Origin: Bugula neritina
Lineage: Eukaryota; Bryozoa; Gymnolaemata; Cheilostomatida; Bugulidae
Reading direction: 5' to 3'
NCBI GenBank assembly: GCA_964035545.1
Contig: OZ037766.1
Span: 13,257,222-13,321,221, forward strand
Length of the DNA: 64,000 nucleotides
The position numbers and the translations under genes were made by a program. Positions 12,236 through 38,795 of this stretch are shown here, one piece after another. The notes below the pieces were generated by a model. The model was not told where the DNA came from. It ran no database searches and saw only the letters and a list, made by a program, of their open reading frames with translations. The stretch's first letter is position 1; each line of letters starts with the position of its first letter.

Positions 12236-15200
12236 ATGTGGCACGTCTTTATCTTAATAATCTTGTTGTCTCATTTCCCTGCTGCAAGGGTAAGTGCTGA
12301 AATTACTGTTAATAACTCCAATGCATTTGCTTGAATATTAAATTTCTAAAATTGTTTCTGCTTTTTGTAAGTTTACACTTTTGTTTTGATTTTCAATGCA
12401 AGTGTTGTATTTTGTTGGCTCTCCACATTTTCTACATGAGCTTATTTATGTGTTATTTTTTGTCTAATTTTTGCAACTTGGTTGTATCCAAGGCATATAA
12501 TAATATTTTAATTAGGTGTCCTAAGCATTTATAAGTTATAGTAGTAGGATCAAAAGCAATATTTAAACTGCAGCACTGAAAATAGTGATACTATAATTAT
12601 TAATAAAGCCTGTATTTTTAGAGTCATGGTAGACTGGTTGAGCCACCTGGAAGATCTACAGCATTTAGATATGGTTTCCAGACTCCACCAAACTATAATG
12701 ACAACCAGTTGTTCTGTGGCGGTGTTCCAGTATGTAGAATTTTTACCTAACACCGTTGCTTTGCTGCATATGCGATATCAGTTACTTAATCTTTTAAAAA
12801 CTGTGCCTTGATGTTATTTTATGCTATATAAATTCGATTGTTTATTCTAAAACTCTTAGATTTTATTTCTTTGAAAATTTCGAAAGGAAAAGTTTTACTG
12901 TAAATAATGCAGATCTTTTAGTTTAACATTAAAAAATGGTAATAATCCAAGAACGTAGCATGGTTACTGGTATAAAAAACTGCAAATGACCAATAACTGT
13001 TGAGCATATACCTACATATGGAACATACAGGAGTTGTAAATAAACATTTTATAGGTGCAGTACAATCAAAATGGTGGGAAATGTGGAGTGTGTGGCGACC
13101 CATGGCATGGACCAATAAAAAACCAGCCTGGCCCAGATAATGTGTACGCTGTCGGTGTTATCACTGGACGTTACACCGAAGGAGACACTATTGTAGCCAA
13201 AGTACAGGTCTGGCTGATGCACAGATGCTTTTTTCCTCACAGCCTTTATTTAGTAACCAAAGCGTTGTTATTTATCATTACCATACAATTGGGAATATGA
13301 CTCTTTCTTCTTGCTAATATACATGTGTAATAGTTACAGATCATAAAAAATGTATGAATTCTCACACTAAACACTGAATATATGTATTGGCAGCACCTTC
13401 CAATACATATATTTACACAGGTGATTTTTTAATCCATAATTTAGCCCAAGATAACAAATACTAAAACAGCATTCAAAGGGTTATTTTTGTTACTCAAATT
13501 CCGTTTGATAATAGAAGGTGTAGTTTAGTGAATTTAAAATCCAGGCTTGCTGCAGTATATACATATACATATGAAAATTTTTATATAAACATTTATATAT
13601 AGTCACTGTAGTGTTGTGTTGTCATAGTTTCATTGTGCAGGTTAGAACTACTATACTGCTATATATCCCTCTATCTAGCTATTGATATTTACCTGTGTTA
13701 CAGATCACGGCGCATCATAAAGGTTGGTTCGAGTTTAAGATATGTGCTAACAATGACGTCACTAAAGCAGTGACTCAAGCATGTCTGGACTACAATGTTC
13801 TGTCTTTAGCACCACTTGGCTCCGGCACCAAGTAAGTGTTGATTTAATATCACCCAGTTCTAGCTGCTCTAAGAGTTTTTCTGGCAGCCTTTCTAAGCTG
13901 CAACTGCTGGCTCGAATTTCATTTGCTATGTTTTATTTTAAAAGAATACTATTTCTATAGTTGAAGACTAGAAAGTTTTTTCAATGGTAAACTGGTGAAT
14001 AATAGCTTTGTTAGCGTTATTGGATAAACAGTATATAGTTTCGCATCTATCAACATGAATAGTTGAATAATACAGACCTGGTTGGAAATTATTTTAATAA
14101 TTTCATACAACTCACTGTTTGATATATTTGCTCAAATCATGTTAATGCCTATCACTACGGTTTAATGCACAGCAAAATGCAACTATTATCACAGGTATAA
14201 GCTCCCTGGCTCAAACCCTGGCATATACGAAGTTGCTCTGGTACTGCCAACTGGTCTAACCTGCTCTCAGTGCGTTCTGCAATGGAGATACCATACAGGT
14301 TTGTCACATTGATCATAATATTTGTATAGCTTACCATTGTCTATCAAGTTACACTAATTTACTAACAATAATTTTTACATATATGCTGATTGGATTATAT
14401 GTATGTATCATTAGTCAAACTTCAATTTCAAAATTATTGATTATTTAAATGTTAAAATGCATAATTGATAACTTGCAAGTGTAGTCATTGTAACATTTGT
14501 TCTGCTCCTTTATATAGGGTTTCTATTATGCTCAACAAAACATTCATGCAGTTTTTTCCTATAATTTACTTGAAAATTGAATTGTGTAATCGACCGACAT
14601 CTTGGTGAATTTTATAAGTTTGTAAAATGCAAACATTTTCTTATCAAAAGTTTACCTCTTCAATTCTTGTGCAATGACAGCACTTAGTTATAGCTTTGAT
14701 TATTTGAAAAGATATCACAGCAATAAAGCTTTAACGATTTATAGCAAAACTTATGTTTAATAAAACTACGTATAAGCAAAGATTTTTAACTAAATACAAT
14801 TAATGTTACTAGATATGTTTTTTAAATTTTGCATTTAGTTTTTTGCTTCTTTTTTCAAAACTAAAGCAGCTAATCTGAAACTAATTGGATAGTCAAGTGT
14901 AATGAAATGCTTTGTATGCATGAATTTACAAAGTATATTGCAGTTCATATTTCACAGAATACTTCTTTTTGAAGTCCTGCGAACAATTTTATGGTAAGTG
15001 AGATTGTATAGACAGCAGGTAAATAATGTACACTGCATGTATGTATGCAGGAAACAGTTGGGGCTGTGATGGTAGCAATTGCTGTGTTGGTTGTGGAAAT
15101 CAAGAAGAATTCTATGCTTGTGCTGATGTAGAGATTACAGCTAATGAGGGTGAGGGAGGTGCTACCCCACCCTCATTACCTCCTATTACTGTGACTACTG

Positions 15201-38795: not shown

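Follow-up and report, generated by a model that had tools for sequence, protein, structure and literature searches.

A predicted Bugula neritina gene that probably encodes a secreted AA15 LPMO joined to a GH18 chitinase, together with two degenerate GH18 domains and four CBM14 modules

In a stretch of 64,000 nucleotides from the bryozoan Bugula neritina (assembly GCA_964035545.1, contig OZ037766.1, positions 13,257,222 to 13,321,221), referred to here as the window, we found a gene model that probably encodes a single secreted modular enzyme, in which an AA15 LPMO and a GH18 chitinase are predicted to combine an oxidative and a hydrolytic mechanism on one chain. The model lies on the plus strand at 12236-38434 or 12236-38795, with 35 or 36 exons respectively, and gives 1827 residues either way. 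The modules follow each other as signal peptide, AA15, linker, active GH18 (GH18a), linker, dead GH18 (GH18b), linker, four CBM14, linker and dead GH18 (GH18c). The gene is probably a single unit, and a role as a combined oxidative and hydrolytic chitin enzyme is predicted, on sound grounds, from the families to which its domains belong.

Results

Gene model

The model was built from coding cores that were chosen by eye among the open frames, by using a small dynamic-programming gene finder in which the start codon at 12236, taken from a first-pass annotation of the window, was forced. The raw output of the gene finder contained 46 exons. Hand pruning took out 11 of them, which were tiny, located in repeats or disrupting the GH18 fold, and shifted four exon ends. 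The junction 38398/38760 was not recovered by the gene finder and was adopted from the same annotation. As the content model was trained on hand-picked cores, the independent support for the gene comes from the Pfam and PDB matches, and these domain matches in the predicted chain are far beyond chance.

All 35 introns of the model are GT-AG and in phase. The frame of the model is the sole open frame in 28 of the 36 exons, and the G+C content is 46% in exons and 30% in introns. The phase-consistent frame of 36 exons that had been proposed for this gene is therefore upheld as regards its introns, with the exon count being either 35 or 36, and the proposed length of 1829 residues is corrected to 1827. 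The proposed domain set of AA15, intact GH18, two dead GH18s and four CBM14s was recovered through Pfam and PDB matches and motif residues. The features of the predicted gene are listed below.

12236-12289, plus strand: exon 1, predicted signal peptide; top 9-residue Kyte-Doolittle mean 3.46
12625-15139, plus strand: AA15 LPMO domain, exons 2-6, residues 20-210; Pfam LPMO_10 and 5msz matches
15140-15284, plus strand: Ser/Thr/Pro linker, end of exon 6 in the gene model
15285-16106, plus strand: intron 6, phase 1, 822 bases, the AA15/GH18 seam
15433-15782, no strand assigned: MITE-like repeat with 74-base terminal inverted repeats, inside intron 6
16109-21731, plus strand: GH18a, exons 7-13, predicted active chitinase; Pfam 311.8 bits, chitotriosidase E 4.2e-122
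17452-17475, plus strand: GH18a catalytic motif DGLDLDWE, conforming to DxxDxDxE
22052-22171, plus strand: exon 14, Thr-rich linker in the gene model
22702-26778, plus strand: GH18b, exons 15-21, catalytic residues lost; Pfam 272.8 bits
23944-23967, plus strand: GH18b motif DGLDLHWL, departing from DxxDxDxE
27421-27537, plus strand: exon 22, Pro/Thr linker in the gene model
28091-28300, plus strand: CBM14 number 1, exon 23; 47.0 bits
28580-28819, plus strand: CBM14 number 2 and linker, exon 24; 45.3 bits
29316-29503, plus strand: CBM14 number 3, exon 25; 27.8 bits
29919-29994, plus strand: exon 26, linker in the gene model
31561-31748, plus strand: CBM14 number 4, exon 27, diverged copy of exon 25; 27.2 bits
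32169-32301, plus strand: exon 28, Pro/Thr linker in the gene model
32788-38398, plus strand: GH18c and short tail, exons 29-35, catalytic residues lost; Pfam 236.9 bits
33570-33593, plus strand: GH18c motif NGVDIAWS, departing from DxxDxDxE
38432-38434, plus strand: stop of the alternative gene end without the last intron; open and in phase
38760-38795, plus strand: possible exon 36, 11 residues and stop, from the first-pass annotation; open and in phase

Phase 1 was found at all nine listed module boundaries (introns 6, 13, 14, 21-24, 26 and 28), which fits exon shuffling of 1-1 modules. Introns 25 and 27, between CBM14 and linker, are in phase 0, and the remaining 24 introns are of mixed phase. 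A long microsatellite at 23155-23302, within intron 15, has three open frames and led the automatic gene finder astray.

AA15 domain

The Pfam LPMO_10 family matched residues 20-207 with 63.6 bits in the whole chain, and with 69.7 bits when the first 210 residues were scored. The Thermobia AA15 structure 5msz was the single PDB match at an E value of 0.001 or better (E 2.4e-47, residues 1-190 of 191), and for this reason the domain can be assigned to AA15. The signal cleavage site was set by eye after Ser19, which is encoded by exon 2, and this places His20 at the start of the mature domain, behind a signal-like N-terminus. The earlier description of a His-initiated AA15 domain agrees with this and with the LPMO_10 and 5msz matches. 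The second histidine of the copper brace is His89 of the mature domain, which aligned with the corresponding His of 5msz.

The 5msz protein shares the AA15 family and both aligned histidines with the window's domain; unlike the bryozoan chain, it consists of the domain only, and it has Tyr in place of Phe at a site that we take to be the axial copper position. Of the 123 matches, 119 relatives were near full length; each copper-brace His is kept in 113 of these 119, and Phe occupies the Tyr site of 5msz in the window and in 112 of the 119. In a tree of these 119 relatives, the window's domain was placed without support.

GH18 and CBM14 modules

Three GH18 stretches were detected by Pfam in the chain, with 802.7 bits in total. 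For GH18a, the Pfam alignment covers 2-317 of 317, and the domain shares 50% identity with chitotriosidase across 358 columns. In both GH18b and GH18c the third Asp and the Glu of DxxDxDxE are gone, and the fold match remains. A set of 23 CHIT1 positions, made up of known cleft or catalytic sites and every Trp, was compared between the three domains. GH18a retains 20 of the 23, departing from CHIT1 at S181, W309 and A355, compared with 12 in GH18b and 9 in GH18c. The equivalents of W31, W99 and W218, which together with the Asp and Glu positions of DxxDxDxE presumably have cleft or catalytic roles in CHIT1, are kept in GH18a and lost in GH18b and GH18c. The equivalent of Y267 is also lost in both, and that of W358 is retained in GH18b.

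GH18b and GH18c could be chitin-binding lectins, and their retained fold matches (272.8 and 236.9 bits), their intact frames across seven exons each and the W358 equivalent of GH18b would be in line with such a role. However, this function is doubtful given the loss of the W31, W99, W218 and Y267 equivalents from both domains and the low number of CHIT1 positions they keep. As these key cleft aromatics are missing as well, the pseudo-enzymes GH18b and GH18c more likely have a spacer, structural or regulatory role than a part in binding chitin.

In a GH18 tree of 87 rows made with a quick method, GH18a and GH18b were joined with a support of 84, which is below the starred level, a hint that GH18b may be a copy of GH18a. 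GH18c sat on a long branch in this tree and was unplaced.

When the CBM14 exons were scored singly, all four were above the Pfam cut-off of 22.1 bits, the last two narrowly; in the whole-chain Pfam scan, just two CBM14 stretches pass. Exons 25 and 27 are 83.7% identical in DNA over 221 columns, with near-identical splice sites. The suggestion that the protein offers many binding surfaces narrows to the CBM14 cluster, being weakened by the dead GH18s, from which the W31, W99 and W218 equivalents have gone along with the catalytic Asp and Glu.

The seam between AA15 and GH18

Whether the two enzymes are on one chain depends on intron 6. At 822 bases it ranks 31st of the 35 introns in ascending order of length; a MITE-like repeat accounts for about 350 of these bases, therefore the seam can be regarded as ordinary in length, with 471 bases remaining against a median of 496. 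The terminal inverted repeats of this element are 95% complementary. Across the genome, 40 of 828 first-look candidates were scored, and all 40, the window copy included, were nearly full length with 95-100% identity (95-97% for the 39 other copies), so the element has probably spread recently.

Several observations count against a single chain and could be explained by two or more adjacent genes, with an AA15 gene that stops in exon 6 and a separate multi-GH18 gene that begins near exon 7. The donor at 15284 and the acceptor at 16107, the sites given in the first-pass annotation, both score 0 or lower in the splice scan. Both were nonetheless picked by the gene finder, although it placed a spurious exon of 51 bases (15540-15590, inside the transposon-like repeat) between them. 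The frame of exon 6, if read through, meets a stop just past 15322, 38 bases beyond the donor, which makes a protein with AA15 alone possible. GH18 is also absent from 122 of the 123 AA15 proteins among the matches listed. With regard to the weak donor, gtttgt donors are likewise found after exons 5 and 28, and another donor at 15149, in the same phase as 15284, scores 4.6; its use would keep the fusion in frame with a linker shorter by 45 residues.

A scan of all 35 introns for a hydrophobic start exon with a donor in the right phase found none in intron 6. This is weak evidence, as such exons were lacking in 29 of the 35 introns; one to four were found in each of introns 15, 24, 26 and 31-33, with introns 24 and 26 lying inside the CBM14 array. 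Two ATG frames with a suitable donor are present in the seam, neither of them hydrophobic, and the in-frame ATG at 16064 is not followed by a signal-like sequence as judged by eye. No AATAAA was found in the seam, and one ATTAAA is located at 16031, just ahead of exon 7. With just 471 bases besides the repeat, and with both domains found together in a Lingula protein (see below), we consider adjacent genes to be unlikely. Less likely still is that both forms are made, with a short AA15-plus-linker protein produced by exon 6 read-through beside the fused chain. In favour of this, the read-through frame is present and the AA15 proteins listed are mostly short and lack GH18; against it, the seam has no AATAAA. 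One gene giving one fused chain is the reading that we prefer.

Relatives of the predicted protein

A protein search with the full chain gave 511 matches among 7981 candidates scored, and the best 120 of these were examined. They were GH18 chitinases, and most of them had several GH18 and CBM14 domains. Animal proteins of the chitinase 10 type resemble the predicted protein in their serial GH18, mostly with CBM14, and some of their GH18 domains are without the motif by a simple pattern test; unlike the window, AA15 was found in none of the best 120 of the 511 matches.

Searches with the AA15 region gave 3 matches among candidates of about 1005-3197 residues and 148 among candidates of about 347-1102 residues, of which 120 were listed. 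The one AA15 protein carrying GH18 among these 123 was from the brachiopod Lingula anatina (LOC106158689, P0199, 413 residues). It has a signal peptide, AA15, a Thr/Pro linker and GH18 in the same order as the window, with 50% identity in AA15 over 202 columns and 47% in GH18 over 143; the available sequence differs in that it stops inside GH18. AA15 is also found with CBM14, for example in Clavelina P0229 and P0240 (379 and 364 residues), which by their Pfam domains resemble the window in this pairing and differ in having no GH18. The full architecture was not found among the 243 relatives listed (the best 120 full-chain matches and the 123 AA15 proteins).

By tree distance, the Lingula AA15 is 48th of 119 from the window's AA15, with weak supports. 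In the GH18 tree, itself weak, the Lingula GH18 fragment, a long and partial row, fell in a neighbouring group and not with GH18a. As the two AA15s do not group, a shared fusion is not proven by the Lingula protein, and it is possible that the two fusions are independent.

Other loci in the genome and the window

The genome (215.8 Mb, 295 contigs) was searched by exon-by-exon matching with the best candidates scored, so that all counts are lower bounds; the Pfam LPMO model, used against the genome, did not pick up the gene in the window itself, and this also makes the numbers of other AA15 loci lower bounds. At least four further AA15 exon clusters were detected, at 32.757 Mb on contig C2 and at 2.371, 2.377 and 17.194 Mb on C4. 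Other GH18 matches were located on C3 at 30.1 Mb, on C24 and on C4 at 13.23-13.26 Mb. No second AA15 adjoining a GH18 was seen among the best-scored matches elsewhere in the genome, the nearest pair being about 3.9 Mb apart.

Elsewhere in the window, an open frame of 334 residues on the minus strand (47610-48611) looks by eye like an NHL-type propeller and has no Pfam match. A proline-rich frame on the same strand (58456-58812), also without a Pfam match on its own, is followed by a stretch that appears formin-like by eye. A short TTATACTACAC-like unit is repeated at 53908-54409 in a simple array that leaves three plus frames open. Pfam gave no match on five open frames of the window other than those of the gene.

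Mitochondrial contig

Contig C295 (15,248 bases, 70.8% A+T) carries mitochondrial frames, all on one strand, in the order nad3, nad2, cox2, cob, nad4L, nad4, nad5, nad1, cox3, a gap fitting the rRNAs, nad6, cox1, a gap fitting atp8, and atp6. Ten of the genes were confirmed by Pfam family, nad2 and nad4 were separated by position and length, and nad4L and nad6 were assigned by eye. Read against known cox1 sequence, AGR codons of the mitochondrial cox1 fall mostly at serine-like positions, not at glycine as in ascidians. The gene order is the circular order published for Bugula neritina in a passage of PMC2678162, where it is described as quite unlike that of other published metazoans, including the other bryozoan compared. 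By this gene order the host is very likely a cheilostome bryozoan, and a tunicate origin was rejected on the gene order and the AGR codons.

A stretch of 3.27 kb in the region of C6:11174465-11174737 is 98.7% identical to C295, and is either a recent nuclear copy or an assembly join. Unless C6 is misassembled, this near-identical stretch links C295 with the main genome. Two further cox1-like stretches, C196:13840-14103 and C65:41280-41543, share about 65-68% DNA identity with C295 over their longest matching segments and could perhaps come from other organisms in the sample.

Discussion

The predicted product of this one bryozoan gene would be a secreted modular enzyme for processing chitin. 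The copper centre of the N-terminal AA15, formed by His1 and the second His, may oxidatively cleave chains in crystalline chitin, opening new ends from which the tethered, chitotriosidase-like GH18a could hydrolyse. The four CBM14 modules would anchor the protein on chitin, with Ser/Thr/Pro linkers holding the modules apart, and GH18b and GH18c would more likely be spacers, structural or regulatory pseudo-enzymes than additional binders. Such an enzyme could help to reshape the chitinous wall of the animal itself as it buds, or to digest chitin-bearing food.

The bacterial enzyme Jd1381 also has an LPMO and a GH18 chitinase on one chain; it differs from the window in carrying AA10 in place of AA15, one GH18 and one CBM5. 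This AA10-CBM5-GH18 enzyme is described, in a passage of a 2023 review (PMC10154629), as performing better as one chain than as separate domains, and as the only characterised enzyme joining an LPMO to another catalytic domain. According to Sabbadin et al. 2018 (PMC5823890), a GH18 domain is fused to some of the AA15 LPMOs of Chlorophyta, Bacillariophyceae and tunicates, and other AA15 LPMOs are attached to CBM14. These fusions share AA15 and GH18 on one chain with the window, which, going by that statement, differs in its bryozoan host, its two dead GH18s and its four CBM14s.

The first-pass annotation knew of no description of this architecture. As the AA15-GH18 pairing is in print, at least in that passage of PMC5823890, and is present in the Lingula protein, the novelty narrows to the phylum and to the full architecture, which the listed relatives do not share. 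In the open-licence literature, no report of a bryozoan or brachiopod AA15-GH18 protein was found by title and start of abstract among the matches listed.

We also put forward a more speculative and rather improbable scenario for the origin of the gene. An AA15 LPMO and a GH18 chitinase might have been fused twice, once in bryozoans and once in brachiopods; the bryozoan form might then have grown to 1827 residues, with the decayed GH18 copies acting as rigid spacers and so determining how far the oxidative and hydrolytic heads lie from the chitin-binding cluster. Chitin is found in the outer coverings of both bryozoans and brachiopods.

An animal fusion headed by AA15 would allow the benefit of tethering to be tested in this family, and it would shed light on the formation and breakdown of crystalline chitin by the animal that makes it. 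With a second fusion in a brachiopod, it can also be asked whether such fusions have originated repeatedly.
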